Shown here piece by piece: positions 19,868-26,948 of a DNA stretch of 64,000 nt (the stretch's first letter is position 1; every line of letters starts with the position of its first letter). The DNA comes from Caulobacter soli (GTDB lineage: Bacteria; Pseudomonadota; Alphaproteobacteria; Caulobacterales; Caulobacteraceae). A program made the position numbers and the translations under genes. The DNA lies in NCBI RefSeq assembly GCF_011045195.1, contig NZ_CP049199.1, positions 558,001 to 622,000 on the forward strand, given 5' to 3'. The notes below the pieces were generated by a model that worked only from the letters and a program-made list of their open reading frames with translations, ran no database searches and was not told the DNA's origin.

Positions 19868-20713
19868 ATGACCGTCGTCCTGCAGACCGCCCGCGCCCAC
19901 GTCGAACTGTTGCCCGCCCTGGGCGGTTCGGTCGGCCGGTTCACCTGGGACGGTCGCGACGTGCTGCGGCCCGCGCCCGCCGACGCAACCGTGCTCGACA
20001 CCGGCAATTTCGCGCTCGTTCCGTTCTGCAACCGCATCCGCGACGGCCGCTTCAGCTTCGGCGGCCATGACGTGGCGCTGGCGCCGAACCTGGGCGATCA
20101 TCCGCACACCCTGCACGGCCAGGGCTGGCGCGGGGCCTGGAGCGTGGTCTCGGCCGGCGAGACCGAGGCGGTGTTGATCTTCGATCACCCGCCCGGCGAA
20201 TGGCCCTGGGCCTATCGCGCCGAGCAACGCTTCACCCTGGGCGAAGGCGGCCTGCGCCAAGAGCTGTCGGTGACCAACACCGGCCCCGAGCCGATGCCCG
20301 CCGGCCTGGGCTTTCACCCCTATTTCCCGGCCCGCGACGGCGAGCGCTTGCAGGCCGGCGTGACCGGCGTCTGGATGATCGATGGCGACTGCCTGCCCAC
20401 CACCCATGTCGACGGCGTCTGGCGCTCGGACTGGGCGGCCGGCGCGCCGACGGCGGTCAGCGAACTGATCGACAACTGCTACACGGGCTGGAACGGCGTC
20501 GCGACCCTGTCGGCGCCGGGCGGAGCCAGCACCATCCTGACCGCTTCGCCGGAATGCCGCTGGCTGCACGTCTTCTCGCCGCCGGGCGCCGACTTCGTCT
20601 GCGCCGAGCCGGTCGCCAATCGTCCGGACCCGTTCAACGGCGAGGACAGTGGGATCAAGGTGCTGGCGCCGGGCGAGACGGCGTCGGTGTGGATGAACCT
20701 GGCTTCGGCCTAG
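19868..20713 (+). CDS. Aldose 1-epimerase (galactose mutarotase-like)
   Basis: A 281-residue mutarotase-fold protein. Typical segments: ALVPFCNRIRDGRFSFGG, LGDHPHTLHGQGWRGAWSV (catalytic His pair region), GLGFHPYFPAR (second conserved His) and a C-terminal SPPGADFVCAEPVANRPDPF, where Glu is the expected catalytic base. It interconverts anomers of hexoses in the cytosol, although this subgroup (YeaD/GalM-like) is sometimes a sugar-phosphate mutarotase. ATG 19868 has GAGG six bases upstream. It ends with a four-base overlap with the converging fixK stop. Confidence 0.85.
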   Translation: MTVVLQTARAHVELLPALGGSVGRFTWDGRDVLRPAPADATVLDTGNFALVPFCNRIRDGRFSFGGHDVALAPNLGDHPHTLHGQGWRGAWSVVSAGETEAVLIFDHPPGEWPWAYRAEQRFTLGEGGLRQELSVTNTGPEPMPAGLGFHPYFPARDGERLQAGVTGVWMIDGDCLPTTHVDGVWRSDWAAGAPTAVSELIDNCYTGWNGVATLSAPGGASTILTASPECRWLHVFSPPGADFVCAEPVANRPDPFNGEDSGIKVLAPGETASVWMNLASA

Positions 20714-21357
20714 TCCACCATCGCTTCGAGCGCCGCGCGATCCCGCAGTAGCACCTTGCGCGTGGTCGGCAGGGCGATCAGGCCGTCGTGCTGGAACTGG
20801 GTGAAGGTGCGCGACACGGTCTCGATGGTCAGGCCCAGATAGTCGGCCATGTCCTGGCGAGTCATGGGCACGTCCAGCAGGGCCTGGGCGCCGGTGCGCT
20901 CGGCCAGGTCCAGCAGCAGGGCGGCGAGGCGCTCGCAGGCGGTGCGGCGGCCCAGCATCAGCACATGATCCTGGCAGCGGCGCAGGCTGTCGGTGGTCAG
21001 TTCCAGCAGCCGCCGGGCCACGTCGCCGCGCTCGCAGGCCAGGGCCTCCAGGGCCGGGCGCGGCATCACCCGCACCAGGGTCGGGCTGAGGGTCTGGGCG
21101 GCCACGCGATAGGCCTCGCCGCTTTCCAGGCCGAACACGTCGCCGGCGAAATGGAAGGCCTCGATCTGCCGCCGGCCGTCACGCAGGATACGGCAGGTGC
21201 GCAGGGAGCCCGAGATCAGTTGGTAGATCCGCTCGGCCGGCTGCCCCTCGTCGAAGATCGTCTCGTCTCGGCCGTAGCTCTGATGAAGACCGTCCAGGAC
21301 GATCGCCACCGGCTGGTGGGTGACGAAGGGGGCGGGGTTCTGGATCACGGACAGCAT
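20710..21357 (-). CDS. fixK: FixK, Crp/Fnr-family low-oxygen regulator
   Basis: A 215-residue Crp/Fnr protein with a cNMP-like sensor domain (ERIYQLISGSLRTCRILRDG, then FHFAGDVFGLESG) and a C-terminal helix-turn-helix, MTRQDMADYLGLTIETVSRT, whose E-SR recognition residues match Fnr/FixK binding to TTGAT-N4-ATCAA. The N-terminal cysteine cluster of Fnr is absent, which fits FixK, a regulator whose own synthesis is controlled by FixLJ. ATG 21357 is preceded by GGGAG. It is adjacent to fixJ, with a candidate FixJ box 73 bases upstream, and a perfect FixK box lies between cydD and cydA. Confidence 0.88.
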   Translation of the reverse strand: MLSVIQNPAPFVTHQPVAIVLDGLHQSYGRDETIFDEGQPAERIYQLISGSLRTCRILRDGRRQIEAFHFAGDVFGLESGEAYRVAAQTLSPTLVRVMPRPALEALACERGDVARRLLELTTDSLRRCQDHVLMLGRRTACERLAALLLDLAERTGAQALLDVPMTRQDMADYLGLTIETVSRTFTQFQHDGLIALPTTRKVLLRDRAALEAMVD

Positions 21358-21429
21358 GGCGATCTCCCGATCTCGTAGCCGGCTCAATCTCCGCCTTCGG
21401 AGCCAAGCGGTACAGTCGGGACCTACGCC

Positions 21430-21445
21430 TAAGGAGGACTACCTA
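21430..21445 (-). promoter_or_regulatory. Candidate FixJ-binding site upstream of fixK
   Basis: On the minus strand, TAGGTAGTCCTCCTTA agrees at 11 of 16 positions with the Sinorhizobium fixK-promoter FixJ site as I recall it (TAAGTAATTTCCCTTA). Its distance from the fixK start (73-88 bases) allows a transcription start about 40-55 bases downstream, as in known FixJ promoters. The match was made by eye. Confidence 0.45.
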
Positions 21446-21479
21446 GGCTGTATTGTACGAAGCCATCGCGTCTCGCGTT

Positions 21480-22094
21480 CTAAGCGCGCCGCGACGACAG
21501 GGTCATGCGCACCAGGGCGGCCAGGTTGTCGGCGTGCATCTTGGCCATCAGCTTGGCGCGATAGATCTCGACCGTGCGGGGGCTGATCCCCAGCTCGCGG
21601 GCGATGACCTTGTTGGGCTGGCCGTCGACGACGCCGTCCAGCACCTGGCGTTCGCGTTCCGACAGGGTCTCCAGCCGCTGGCGCACCAGGGTCGCCTCGT
21701 CGGAAACGGCGGCGCTCGCCGGCGGCGGGCCGGCCTCCAGGGCGCGGTTCAGGGCGTCGATCATCCGGCTCTCGCCGAACGGCTTTTCGATGAAGTCGGC
21801 CACGCCGGCCCGCATGGCCTCGACCGCCAGAGGGATGTCGCCATGGCCGGTGATCATGATGATCGGCACGCGGCAGCCCCGGGCGTTCAGCTCGCGCACC
21901 AGCTCCAGGCCCGTCATGTCGGGCATGCGCATGTCGGTGATCACGCACCCGGCCCCGTCCAGCGGCAGGGCGTCCAGCAGGGCCAGGGCGGAGGCATGGC
22001 TGACCACCTCGAAGTCGGCCGCTTCCAGCAGAAAGGCCAGGGACTCGCGGGCGCTCTCGTCGTCGTCGACCACATGGACCACGGCTTCACTCAT
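21480..22094 (-). CDS. fixJ: FixJ oxygen-responsive response regulator
   Basis: A 204-residue regulator with receiver residues Asp10-Asp12, phospho-acceptor Asp54 in [12 protein letters not shown], Thr near 83 (IMITGHGD) and Lys104 in IEKPF, followed by a LuxR-type helix-turn-helix ([20 protein letters not shown], then [20 protein letters not shown]). This [17 protein letters not shown] / FIEKPF pattern is characteristic of FixJ. Its start overlaps the end of fixL by eight bases, so kinase and regulator are translationally coupled. Phosphorylated under low oxygen, it activates fixK, located 122 bases downstream. Confidence 0.92.
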
Positions 22095-23556
22095 CGATCG
22101 GTCCCTCTTCGTCGTCTCGTCTGGGGGGCAGGATGAAATGGAACACCGTGCCGCCCTTGGGGTTCGGGTCGGCCCAGATACGCCCGCCGTGCGCCTCGAT
22201 GATCGAGCGCGAGATCGACAGGCCCACCCCCATGCCTTCGGCCTTGGTGGTCATGAACGGCTGGAACAGCCGCTCGCGAAAATCGTCGCTGATGCCCGAG
22301 CCGGTGTCGGTGACGCTGACTTGCACCGAACCGTTGTCGAGCCGCTGGCTGGCGATGATCAGTTCGCGGCGCTGGGAGTCGGCCATGGCGTCCACGGCGT
22401 TGCGGATCAGATTGACCAGCACCTGCTGGATCTGGACCCGGTCGGCATAGACGGCGTCGGCGGCGGGATCCAGTTGCAGGCGGGTGGCGACCAGATGCTC
22501 GCGCGCGCCGATCAGGGCCAGGGCGGCGGCGTCCTCGACCACCTTGGACAGGCTCTCGGGCGCGCGCTCGCTGGCCCCGCGCCGCACGAATTCGCGCATG
22601 CGGTGGATCACGTCGCCGGCCCGCAGGGCCTGGGCCGAAGCCTTGTCGACGGCGTCGCGGACCTTGGCCTGGTCCTCGGGGCGGCCGCGATCGAGCAGGC
22701 GGCGCGAGCCGGTCAGCAGGTTGGCGATCGCCGACAGCGGCTGGTTCAGCTCGTGGGCCAGGGTCGAGGCCATCTCGCCCATGGCGGTCAGGCGCGAGAC
22801 GTGGACCAGCTCGGTCTGCAGGTCGCGCAGCCGGGCCTCGGTGTGCTGGCGCTCGGTCAGGTCGCGGATGAAGCCGGTGTAGAACGGCCGCAGGCCCCGG
22901 GTCTCGCCGACGGCCAGCTCCATCGGGAAGGTCGAGCCGTCCTTGCGCTTGCCCACCACCACGCGGCCGGCGCCGATGATGCGAGGCTCGCGGGTCTGGC
23001 TATAACGGGCCAGGAAGCCGTCGTGGCCGGCGCGGTCGGGCTCGGGCATCAGCAGGCTGACGTTCTGGCCGATGGCCTCGGACGAGGTCCAGCCGAACAG
23101 GCGCTCGGCGGCGGGGCTGAACGAGGTCATCACGCCGGCCGGGTCGATGACGATCACCGCGTCGGGAGCCGAATCCAGGATCGACTGCAGGTGATGGGTC
23201 ATGGCCGCGGCGCGCGAGCGGGCGGCGTGGAACCAGCCGCCGCCGACCGACATGCCAAAGCCGATCATCACGAACACCAGGCTCGACAGCGCCGTGGCCT
23301 GGTCGGGCTGTCCCTGGACCTTCAGCAGCCAAACCGCCCCGGCCGCCAGCACGGTGGCGAACAGGCCCGGCGCCAGGCCGCCGACCGCCGCGCTGATCAG
23401 CACGGCCGGCACGAACAGCAGGAAGGCCGAGGGGGCGGTGAAGCCGGGGGGCAGGGCCAGCTGGATCAGGGCGCAGGCCAGCACCGTGGCCAGGGCGGCC
23501 AGATAGGCCCGGGGCCGCAGGTCGCTATGCAGCGTCCCGGCCGAAACCGTGGTCAT
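22087..23556 (-). CDS. fixL: FixL heme-PAS oxygen sensor histidine kinase
   Basis: A 489-residue membrane kinase. Several transmembrane helices occupy about residues 17-111, then a PAS domain with the FixL heme signature: proximal His178 in GHDGFLARY and the distal Arg198 in [20 protein letters not shown]. The kinase core has [15 protein letters not shown] (His268), [16 protein letters not shown] and [10 protein letters not shown]. Oxygen bound to heme inhibits the kinase; low oxygen releases it to phosphorylate FixJ. ATG 23556 is adjacent to an in-frame GTG, and TTG 23583 is also possible. It begins 33 bases after cydC, in the same operon. Confidence 0.92.
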
Positions 23557-23589
23557 CACGTGATAGCGGTCTCCGCTGCGCAAGGTCGG

Positions 23590-25317
23590 CTACCCTATAG
23601 CCCCTGGCGGAGAGATTGGCAGTTCCTGATCGCACAAGGCGCGTGGGGCGGGGCGGTGGCTGACCAGGATCAGGCCCTGGCCGGTGCGCTTGAGTCTGGC
23701 GTCCAGCCGCTCGACGACCAGGGCTTCGGTGGCGGGATCCAGGCCCTCGGTGGGCTCGTCCAGCAGCAGCCAGGGCGCGTCGCGCAGCAGGGCGCGGGCC
23801 AGGGACAGGCGCCGCCGCTCGCCGCCCGACAGCCGCTCGCCGTTCTCGCCGATCCAGGTGTCCAGCCCTTGGGGCAAAACGCGGACCCGGGCCTCCAGCG
23901 CGGCGTCGGCCAGGGCGTTCCACAGGGCGTCGTCTGCGTGGGCGCCGGCCAAGGCGAGGTTGGCGCGGACGGTCCCGGCGATCATGCCGGCGTCCTGCGG
24001 GGCGTGGGCGAAGGCGCGGCGGACGACGCTGGGGTCGAGCTGCGTGATATCCAGACCGGAGAGGGCCAGATAGTTATTCCGCTCATCCCGGCGAATGCCG
24101 GGACCCAGATCCGATGGCTGAGTGGATGATTGGAGGGGCTCAGCGCGCTTTGGAGCCAGCTCCAACGTTATTCCATCTGGGTCCTGGCATTCGCCGGGAT
24201 GAGCGGCTTTTTTTGAGCGCAGCCCGAGCAGGCGCTCCAGGATCGTGGTCTTTCCGCAGCCCGACGGACCGGTCAGGACCAAGCGGTCGCCAGGCTTCAA
24301 TTCGACGTCGCCAAGCGACAGGCGCGGGTGCATCAGGGCCAGGTTCGACGGCGGACCAGGCGCGTGGACGAGCACCGCGTCCAGCCGTTCCGCCGCCGCG
24401 TCGGCGCCGGCCTCCTGCTCGAACGCCTTGCCGATGCCCACCAGTCCCTCCAGCGCCATGGCGGCGGCGAGGCCGGCCATGGCCGCCAGGGGCGTGGCGG
24501 CGTCGTGGGCGAAGGCCAGGACCAGGGCGACGGCCAGGCCCAGGATCGCGCCCTGCAGCACGGCCACCCAACCGCTGGCGGCGACGGCGTCTCGCTTGAG
24601 GGCGTCGAGCCGCGCGCCCTTGGCGGCGATCTCGGCGGCGGCGCGGTCCTGCACGCCATAGACCCGTAGCTCGGACGCGGCGGCGGCGTAGGCGGCCAGG
24701 GTGTCCTTCAATTCCCCGGCGGCTTGCTGGATCGCTTGTGCGGTACGGGCGGTCAGGCGGTGGGCCAGGGCACGGACGCCAACTACGCTCGCGGCCACGG
24801 CCAGGGCGACGACCAGGGCGCTGGCCCAGCCGGCGGGGGCGGCCATGGCCAGGCCCGCCGCGACGGCGGCTCCGGCCCCCCAGGGGGCGGAGAGGCGGAT
24901 CAGCCGGGTCTCGACCGCGTCGACGTCCTGCACCAGCCGGGCCGAGGCCTCGCCGCGCGACAGGGCCAGGGCCTGTGCGGGTGGCGCGGCTGCCAGGGAC
25001 GCGTAGAGCCTCGGCCGGATGACGGCCAGGGCCTTCAGCGCGGCGGCGTGGCCGCTTAGGCGTTCCAGATAACGGAACGCGGTGCGCAGGATGGCCAGCA
25101 GGCGGATGCCGGCGCTGGGCAGCAGCACGTTGAAGATCTGTGCCGAAGCCACGCCCGCCAGGCCGGCGATCGCCGCCCCGGTCAGGAACCAGCCGGACAG
25201 GCCCAGCAACAGCACCGAGGCGGCGCCGACGATCGCGGCCGAGACGGAGGCCAGGCGCAGGCCGTCGGCGTGGCGCTTGCGCTGCTCGCGGACCAGGGCG
25301 GCGAGGGGACCGCTCAT
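23590..25317 (-). CDS. cydC: CydC, ABC exporter subunit for cytochrome bd assembly, with an in-frame repeat insertion
   Basis: A 575-residue half-transporter that with CydD exports glutathione/cysteine to the periplasm, needed for cytochrome bd assembly. The membrane domain (six helices, residues about 20-290) precedes an ATPase domain with Walker A GPSGCGKT (350-357), LSGGE (496-500), Walker B WLLLDEP (516-522) and H-loop His554. Between Walker A and the LSGLDITQLDP segment, residues 371-413 are encoded by a palindromic repeat (PGECQDPDG, DLGPGIRRDE) that has no counterpart in normal CydC. The frame is intact. The start overlaps cydD (ATGA). Whether the pump still functions is open. Confidence 0.9.
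   Translation of the reverse strand: MSGPLAALVREQRKRHADGLRLASVSAAIVGAASVLLLGLSGWFLTGAAIAGLAGVASAQIFNVLLPSAGIRLLAILRTAFRYLERLSGHAAALKALAVIRPRLYASLAAAPPAQALALSRGEASARLVQDVDAVETRLIRLSAPWGAGAAVAAGLAMAAPAGWASALVVALAVAASVVGVRALAHRLTARTAQAIQQAAGELKDTLAAYAAAASELRVYGVQDRAAAEIAAKGARLDALKRDAVAASGWVAVLQGAILGLAVALVLAFAHDAATPLAAMAGLAAAMALEGLVGIGKAFEQEAGADAAAERLDAVLVHAPGPPSNLALMHPRLSLGDVELKPGDRLVLTGPSGCGKTTILERLLGLRSKKAAHPGECQDPDGITLELAPKRAEPLQSSTQPSDLGPGIRRDERNNYLALSGLDITQLDPSVVRRAFAHAPQDAGMIAGTVRANLALAGAHADDALWNALADAALEARVRVLPQGLDTWIGENGERLSGGERRRLSLARALLRDAPWLLLDEPTEGLDPATEALVVERLDARLKRTGQGLILVSHRPAPRALCDQELPISPPGAIG
24079..24206. repeat. Palindromic repeat inside cydC (32-bp inverted arms)
   Basis: Left arm 24079-24110 begins CCGCTCATCCCGGCGAATGC; right arm 24175-24206 is its reverse complement with a single mismatch in 32. 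The 64-base centre contains a second inverted pair (TTGGAG near 24130 with CTCCAA near 24160, plus GGCTC/GAGCC), so the whole could fold into one long branched hairpin. Arms of this sequence type are familiar as dispersed intergenic repeats in Caulobacter and Brevundimonas genomes; here it is entirely coding. Confidence 0.9.
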
Positions 25318-26948
25318 AGTCGCACCACGCGATCGGCGAGGGCGGCGACGGCCTCGGAATGGGTGGCGATCAGAGTGGTTCGGCCCTGGGCGGCGGCGCG
25401 GAGGATCGGCAGCAGGGCAAGCTCTGACGTCGCGTCCAGATCGGCGGTCGGTTCGTCCAGCAGCAGGATCGGCGCGGGCTTGAGCATGGCGCGGGCCAGG
25501 CCCAGCCGCCGCCGCTCGCCGCCGGACAGGCCCGCGCCGCGCTCGTCCAGCGGCGCGTCCAGGCCGTCTCGACCGTCAAGCACGGCGCCGAGGCCGACCG
25601 CGCGGGCGACGTGCTCCAGCGCCTCGCGCGTCGCGTCCGGGTGAGCCAGGGCCAGGTTGTCGGCCAGGGTTCCGGGCAGGACGACGGGCGACTGTCCGGC
25701 CCAGGCGACCGACGCGGCGATCGAGCCCAGGTGCGACAGGCGCCGGTCGCCGACCAGCACCTCGCCGCCGCTCAGGGGCGCCAGGCCTAGCAGCAGGTTC
25801 AGCAGGGTGGTCTTGCCGCTGCCGCTGGGACCCAGCAGGGCGACGACCTCGCCGGGGGCGATGTCGAGGTCAAAGCCGTCGAACACCGCGGCTTCGCCCG
25901 CGTCGTAGGCCACGGTCACCGCCTGGAAGCGGAGAGCCGGCGTGGCGTCGAAGGTCACGATCGGCGGAGGCGGCGAGGGCGCGGGCAGGGCGGCCAGGGT
26001 CAGGGCGGCGGCCTCGGCGGCCTGGCGGTCGTGATAGGCGGCGGCCAGGCGGCGCAGCGGGGCGTAGACCTCCGGCGCCAGGGCCAGGGCGAAGAAGGCG
26101 CGCTTCAGGTCCAGCTGTTCGGGAACCGGGAAGGGCAGCAGCCGCAGCAGGTTGAAGCCGCAATAGACCGCGACCAGCGCCACCGACAGGGCGGCGAAGA
26201 ACTCCAGGGCGCCCGACGACAGGAAGGCGACCCTCAGCACGCGGATGGTCCGCCGCGCCAGGTCGTCGGCGGCGCCGGACAGGTCGCGGGTCACCGCGCC
26301 CTCGGCCTGGAAGGCCAGCACCACGGGCAGGGCGCGAACCCGGTCGAGGAACAGGCCCGACAGCCGCTCCAGGGCCAGAAACTGCCGCCGCGACTCCTCG
26401 GCCGCCGCGCCTCCGGCCAGGGCCATAACCAGGCCGAACGGGATCAGGGTCAGCAGCAGGATGGCGGCAGCGACCGGCGTGGCCACGGCGATGGCCGCGA
26501 TGATCAGGATCGGCGCGACGGCCGAGGCCAGCTTGGCTGGCTCGAAACGCGAAACATGGCCGTCCAGGGCCTCGACCCCCTCGACCACGGCCGACAGCGC
26601 CTCGCCGCCGGTGACTCGGCCGCTCAGCACCGAGGCGACGGCGTCGCGGCGCGCCTTGTCCTTCACCCCGGCGGCGGCCAGAGCTCCCGCCTCGGCGGCG
26701 CGCTTGGCCAGCACACCACGCGCGGCGGCGGCCAGGGCGATCAGGACCAGCCACGGCGCGGCGGCGAGAAGACCGCGCGGCAGGGCGTCGATGGCCAGGG
26801 CCAGGCCGGCGGCGAAGGCGATCGCGGCGGGAACGTCGGCCAGCAGCCACAGCGGCGCGGCCTTGGCGGCGCGTCCGCCGGCCTTGCCAAGCGCCTTCAG
26901 CCAGGGCCGCGCGACGGCGTCGAGGTCGGCGGTGAAACTGGCGGACAT
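25314..26948 (-). CDS. cydD: CydD, ABC exporter subunit for cytochrome bd assembly
   Basis: A 544-residue ABC half-transporter. The N-terminal membrane domain has about six helices and motifs of CydD (TRDLSGAADDLARRTIRVLR, YAPLRRLAAAYHDRQAA). The ATPase domain has Walker A GPSGSGKT near residue 373, signature LSGGERRRLGLARAML near 473, Walker B ILLLDEPTADLD and a final ATHSEAVAALADRVVRL. It pairs with CydC to export reduced thiols. Length agrees with the family, with no insertion, in contrast to cydC. It is first in the cydD-cydC-fixL-fixJ unit and starts 35 bases from the FixK box shared with cydA. Confidence 0.92.
   Translation of the reverse strand: MSASFTADLDAVARPWLKALGKAGGRAAKAAPLWLLADVPAAIAFAAGLALAIDALPRGLLAAAPWLVLIALAAAARGVLAKRAAEAGALAAAGVKDKARRDAVASVLSGRVTGGEALSAVVEGVEALDGHVSRFEPAKLASAVAPILIIAAIAVATPVAAAILLLTLIPFGLVMALAGGAAAEESRRQFLALERLSGLFLDRVRALPVVLAFQAEGAVTRDLSGAADDLARRTIRVLRVAFLSSGALEFFAALSVALVAVYCGFNLLRLLPFPVPEQLDLKRAFFALALAPEVYAPLRRLAAAYHDRQAAEAAALTLAALPAPSPPPPIVTFDATPALRFQAVTVAYDAGEAAVFDGFDLDIAPGEVVALLGPSGSGKTTLLNLLLGLAPLSGGEVLVGDRRLSHLGSIAASVAWAGQSPVVLPGTLADNLALAHPDATREALEHVARAVGLGAVLDGRDGLDAPLDERGAGLSGGERRRLGLARAMLKPAPILLLDEPTADLDATSELALLPILRAAAQGRTTLIATHSEAVAALADRVVRL

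Follow-up and report, generated by a model that had tools for sequence, protein, structure and literature searches.

The window, a stretch of 64,000 nucleotides from the genome of Caulobacter soli, a member of a free-living genus, carries on its minus strand cydC, which encodes an ABC exporter subunit, and cydD, which encodes its partner (Table 1). The NCBIfam CydC model is the best match for window cydC, though under its cut-off. Six Caulobacter CydC proteins tested (window cydC and those at loci L092, L094, L096, L099 and L102) score 254–293 bits against a cut-off of 329, and the model is the best or second match for all six. The insert described below was rejected as the cause of these low scores, because CydC proteins with the insert, with a solo repeat or with none (BIN4 and T5M6) are all under the cut-off. 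Adjoining cydDC, at 20710–23583, are genes for oxygen regulators resembling FixK, FixJ and FixL. The NCBIfam models of FixK and FixJ match above their cut-offs, and that of FixL is the best match of the kinase, below the cut-off.

Table 1 Features of the cydDC locus and of the repeat within cydC (window coordinates)
Feature	Position	Strand	Remarks
cydC, ABC exporter subunit, 575 aa	23590..25317	-	open through the element
CydC ABC signature and Walker B, residues 496-522	23752..23832	-	intact
A/T-rich flank, one side	24070..24078		
Head-to-head REP dimer, 128-nt palindrome	24079..24206		read as CydC residues 371-413, minus strand
Inverted arm 1	24079..24110		tag GCTC, stem ATCCCGGC/GCCGGGAC, loop GAAT, tail CCA
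Element centre	24111..24174		conserved in dispersed copies; oriented alike in UNC358 cydC, flipped in BK020 cydC
CAGCGCGCTTTGG, extra-base site	24141..24153	+	common to the three 128-nt cydC copies (128 versus 127 nt)
Inverted arm 2	24175..24206		pairs with arm 1 except for one pair
A/T-rich flank, other side	24208..24214		seven T on the plus strand
CydC Walker A, residues 350-357 (GPSGCGKT)	24247..24270	-	
cydD, partner subunit	25314..26948	-	without insert

The original prediction placed a palindrome with a single arm mismatch in frame within the ATPase domain of CydC. Our repeat search gives the same arms and spacing (32-nt arms, 97% complementary with one mismatch, and a 64-nt spacer), and the cydC open reading frame places the element on the proposed codons. 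The encoded 43-residue insert, AHPGECQDPDG...DLGPGIRRDER, separates Walker A from the rest of the ATPase domain. The prediction is of one long hairpin: the 146-nt stretch around the element folds with −90.3 kcal/mol (z −9.07), and 0 of 200 shuffles is as good. The centre had been proposed to pair as well; it is predicted to do so only in part. The arm core has two matches in the window against 0.09 expected, and, with up to three mismatches allowed, a 28-nt arm matches the genome 62 times forward and 61 times in reverse, whereas its reversed control matches 0 times in either direction, so that a chance occurrence is ruled out. A known Rfam family was rejected for 23900–24400, where the best match reaches 15.8 bits and the gathering score is 162. 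A protein search with the insert peptide gave one candidate and no matches, and looks insensitive.

Walker A, Walker B, the signature and the open frame of CydC are all intact, and CydD has no such insert, both as originally described. Among 15 pairs from nine carriers (BIN40 left out), dN/dS is 0.18–0.36 before the insert and 0.14–0.23 after it; both flanking parts of CydC are thus under purifying selection. These values and the intact ATPase motifs suggest that the gene is functional and that the protein tolerates the repeat, as had been proposed. The AlphaFold model of CydC (50 sequences) has a mean pLDDT of 87.4, and only at residues 372–410 does pLDDT fall below 50 over a segment of at least three residues; the insert is thus modelled with very low confidence, as would be expected for a disordered loop. 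The closest fold matches of the model are E. coli CydDC chains (CydC), and sequence comparison finds no counterpart of the insert in E. coli CydC. In the model, the insert site follows the Walker A helix and precedes the next strand, and the loop at this site varies in length among Caulobacter CydC proteins.

The window copy is without a frameshift, and the same site is filled in independent assemblies (UNC358, BK020, Root655, AP07 and Caulobacter sp. K31), which argues against an assembly or sequencing artefact. A frameshift in the BIN40 metagenome-assembled genome (MAG) and three truncated database proteins, all described below, would fit an artefact or a pseudogene; purifying selection on both sides of the insert and the intact ATPase motifs speak against a pseudogene, and we regard this explanation as highly improbable.

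The element belongs to a dispersed family. A covariance model was built from 30 copies, and 150 of 5,332 first-look candidates in C. soli were scored with it, making the resulting census a lower bound: at least 79 distinct places, of which 70 are of 88–144 nt and nine are solo 32-nt hairpins. The commonest length is 127 nt (41 of 78 places), with outer ends CCGCTC...GAGCGG. The flanks of the copies differ in sequence, but their first bases are A/T-rich (an A/T fraction of 0.68–0.84 across copies in the first six flanking bases versus about 0.35 further out), and runs of four or more T are present in 39 of 274 flanks. By a simple codon-usage gene finder, 38 of the 79 C. soli places found are convergent, 36 tandem, 4 divergent and 1 intragenic, the last being cydC. 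The census of UNC358 (G033), a lower bound that likewise scored 150 candidates, gives at least 75 places (33 convergent, 37 tandem, 4 divergent and 1 intragenic, again cydC). Convergent places look enriched, because neighbouring gene pairs in the window are only 9 convergent against 46 tandem (and 9 divergent). At tandem places in C. soli, the element begins 3–45 nt past the upstream stop; at 37 convergent places, the distance to the stop is at most 20 nt in 66 of 74 cases (median 11, range −38 to 563).

The expectation that such a repeat is normally intergenic, and is here translated, agrees with the 78 of 79 C. soli and 74 of 75 UNC358 places outside gene models, cydC being the one exception in either genome. 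A stricter read-through test gives 2 of 78 places as intragenic, namely cydC and a weak-scoring 32-nt solo at contig positions 2853175–2853206 that the gene models did not keep as such; at ten further places just one of the two sides is open into a gene, and these were counted as intergenic. A second dimer class of 88–89 nt, mostly with canonical CGTC tags, coexists in C. soli (L181, L186, L187 and L195–L198).

The available part of PMC3733652 describes CGTC REPs as mostly alphaproteobacterial, mainly head-to-head dimers, near gene 3′ ends and sometimes intragenic; they include Rickettsia RPE-4 and RPE-6, and two Xanthomonas recB genes carry different REPs at about the same site. Our family resembles these, as described there, in its alphaproteobacterial host, 4-nt loop, stem of about 8 bp and CCA tail, and in forming head-to-head dimers that lie beside gene 3′ ends, sometimes in genes, with no linked transposase. 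Head-to-head dimers dominate (70 of the 79 places found fit the whole dimer model at 88–144 nt), and 74 of the 79 lie between convergent or tandem genes. The CCA tail is present in 121 of 142 pattern-fitting arms (156 arms in total), the pattern itself having fixed the loop at 4 nt. The tag differs: it is GCTC in 88 of 110 arms of the 120–144-nt copies, with a first stem pair that is usually A/C, and not CGTC, TGTC or CCTC as given for the CGTC REPs in that part of the source; in the 88–89-nt class, 9 of 14 arms have CGTC. As the main class does not pass the tag test, strict membership is withheld, and the cydC element is a REP dimer akin to the CGTC superfamily. The main text of PMC3733652 makes no mention of Caulobacter, and no clade-wide same-site series was found in the part available.

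The original prediction likened the element to the Rickettsia palindromic element (RPE), a repeat turned into protein. The likeness lies in a palindromic repeat read in frame within a protein gene, and in cydC a dispersed palindrome does form part of the reading frame of a gene that is under purifying selection. RPEs, as far as the available parts of reviews describe them, sit in many genes of obligate intracellular bacteria, unlike the present family, with 1 of 79 and 1 of 75 places intragenic, both cydC. By analogy, the cydC element, if expressed as predicted, would work like an RPE-type coding insertion; the comparison stands for the in-frame repeat and is refined as to kinship, the nearest relative being the CGTC-type head-to-head REP dimer. 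As in REPINs (available part of PMC3116915), two inverted REPs form one hairpin and solo REPs occur as remnants. REPINs are tied there to a nearby RAYT gene, unlike the C. soli family: no match to PF01797 (RAYT) was found in the C. soli genome, whereas control genomes do give matches. Five of the 11 genomes searched have one Y1 transposase (PF01797) match each. No REP-like palindrome of the patterns tried was found within 1.5 kb of four of these loci (L313–L316, in UNC358, LF-bin-218, AP07 and BK020), and a RAYT-linked REPIN was rejected. The CIR, the Caulobacter CcrM-associated intergenic repeat, has a GANTC site and two separate arms in its fold (available part of PMC2229807), and is termed intergenic only in what is available of two reviews (PMC10969869, PMC2229807). 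It is likewise a Caulobacter repeat with inverted repeats and intergenic placement, of about 110 bp according to the parts available, but 29 of 30 copies of our family are without GANTC and one long hairpin is predicted; with GANTC in only 1 of 30 copies, CIR membership was rejected.

Residues 371–413 are not unique to this strain, a point the original prediction had singled out for checking: ten genomes, all of one Caulobacter clade, have the element or a remnant at the same CydC codon (C. soli, UNC358, BK020, AP07, Root655, Root1455, UNC279, LF-bin-218, BIN40 and G006). Same-genus outgroups are without the element at this site, and the segment, whose presence in distant genera would have counted against the original prediction, is absent from all other-genus loci listed. 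No close empty allele of the site was found. In a CydC tree of 26 rows, computed with the insert excluded, the ten carriers and the element-free BIN4 MAG form a clade of 11 with 100/100 support. The best tree needs two label changes, and only 30% of 200 bootstrap trees need a single one, which speaks against a single entry; the well-supported branches force only one.

A CydC protein search gave 788 matches. Among the best 120, outgroup-like proteins (P0083 and P0086–P0120) have a 24–25-residue segment at the site in 36 of 36 cases, and clade proteins have 7 to 67 residues there. An 89-row tree includes rows from the same best 120 of 788, with presence and type judged from peptides. In it, the element or a remnant is present in 71 of 78 clade rows and in 0 of the 11 rows outside the clade; 7 clade rows, BIN4 among them, are element-free, and in 29 of the 89 rows a remnant is all that is left. 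The best tree has 33 type changes and 7 presence/absence changes, and is a quick one with 37 of 86 inner branches weak; its starred branches alone force fewer type changes (7 for the solo, and 8 and 4, respectively, for the main two forms). Labels of type were assigned manually, some of them unchanged, for P0016, P0017, P0051, P0067, P0071, P0073, P0076, P0100 and T5M6. The tree left out six near-duplicates (P0006, P0034, P0057, P0058, P0059 and P0062), the partial or truncated P0081, P0082, P0084 and P0085, row T5M6, and all but three of P0091–P0120. In P0081, P0084 and P0085, CydC terminates within the element or shortly past it, through a stop or a reading in another frame; these are possibly broken alleles, cut contigs or errors. 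The BIN40 MAG (L098) has a one-base frameshift in cydC downstream of its solo remnant, either real or an assembly error.

The cydC site holds 32-nt solos and three size forms, of which two occur in either orientation. Besides the 128-nt form, a 104-nt form in G006 and Root655 cydC is related to dispersed copies in G006, Root655 and C. soli, and its other strand, translated in the same phase, gives a peptide that P0033 and P0039 match. The 89-nt form in AP07 cydC may or may not belong to the dispersed 88–89-nt class. The 32-nt solos, in cydC of UNC279, LF-bin-218 and BIN40, are as expected from deletion between short repeats common to the arms. The BK020 centre has an identity of 0.80 and 0.84 to those of C. 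soli and UNC358 cydC when flipped, and of 0.50 and 0.44 when not. It is nearest to dispersed copies (up to 0.91), above the cydC copies of C. soli and UNC358, a result that replacement, too, would explain. The forms may be swapped through conversion by dispersed copies, through new insertions or through alleles exchanged between species.

Each of the nine measurable cydC copies has a length of 2 mod 3 (128, 128, 128, 104, 104, 89, 32, 32 and 32 nt), whereas full copies of 120–130 nt are mostly 1 mod 3 (41 of 54 and 56 of 66 in two genomes, each including its cydC copy). The exact motif CAGCGCnCTTTGG is present in 2 of 153 copies, both in cydC, and also in BK020 cydC with the centre inverted. 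By alignment, an extra base at consensus position 67–68 is present in 3 of 3 128-nt cydC copies and in 1 of 118 other full copies, an intergenic one at contig positions 2317137–2317264 with a diverged centre (identity 0.58–0.66). The extra base was therefore rejected as unique to cydC, which lowers the odds of our main explanation a little. The shared base favours, without proving, one ancestral copy that would have been brought into frame and later inverted.

If the codon were instead a hot spot at which each lineage acquired its own element, one would expect the variety seen in size and orientation, the 33 type changes of the 89-row tree and a BK020 centre nearest to dispersed copies. Every carrier found belongs to one clade, however; the extra-base spot is common to three cydC copies, one of them inverted, against 1 of 118 other full copies; and the bases adjoining the element are alike in several carriers. 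Repeated independent insertion is thus unlikely in our assessment.

Less probable still, in our estimate, is that the element is kept for a function, with its hairpin acting in cydDC mRNA or its loop modulating CydC. Most clade rows (71 of 78) do retain it or a remnant, and in six full copies 27–29 of 29 outer arm pairs are kept, some with changes on both sides of a pair. Such paired changes would be expected anyway if the types come from the dispersed pool; moreover, 29 of 89 rows hold only a remnant and seven clade rows none, the loop varies in sequence and has very low model confidence, and a scan that allows loops of 3–8 nt only called no intrinsic terminator at the locus. Given their A/T-rich flanks and T runs, the intergenic copies may have a terminator-like role.

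The explanation we prefer, and consider probable, is that one REP dimer entered cydC in the ancestor of the clade, was held in frame and has been turning over since. A mobile or formerly mobile head-to-head dimer, of a kind usually found just behind stop codons, would have landed in the surface loop that joins the Walker A helix to the next strand, where natural length variation points to tolerance; no transposase tied to the element was found. The inserted copy would have come into frame (2 mod 3) and presumably been read as a disordered loop since, with selection for a working CydC demanding only that changes to the element be in frame and free of stops. Within these bounds, the element may collapse to a 32-nt solo REP via the short repeats that its arms share, its centre may invert between the arms, and other REP subfamilies may replace it at the site. 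The position and frame are the same throughout the series of types, and the element is most likely a tolerated passenger held in frame. Against the evidence for frame preservation stand the bias of the protein database towards intact genes, the truncated P0081, P0084 and P0085, and the frameshifted BIN40.

A stronger version of this preferred explanation, to which we give slightly less than an even chance, is that cydC contains a coding slot in which, after a single ancestral insertion, dispersed REPs have been replacing one another alongside in-place inversion, the same phase always being regained, since the phase is set by the arms and the element reads open either way round. If true, this would mean that intergenic repeats and a conserved ATPase gene are still exchanging sequence.

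No report of the element in CydC was found in the open-licence literature searched; intragenic REPs are already known, and a same-site series like that of cydC was not found in print in that literature. Repeats in proteins are usually seen as isolated cases, and here many members of a clade can be compared at one insertion point in a conserved gene: the outgroups are free of the element, and the clade shows several size forms, inverted forms, solos and a few possibly broken copies. The series allows direct tests of how a repeat enters a protein, regains frame and decays from dimer to solo, and of whether its loop ever comes to have a function. The cydC slot thus provides a natural series in which the passage of repeat DNA into protein can be followed.
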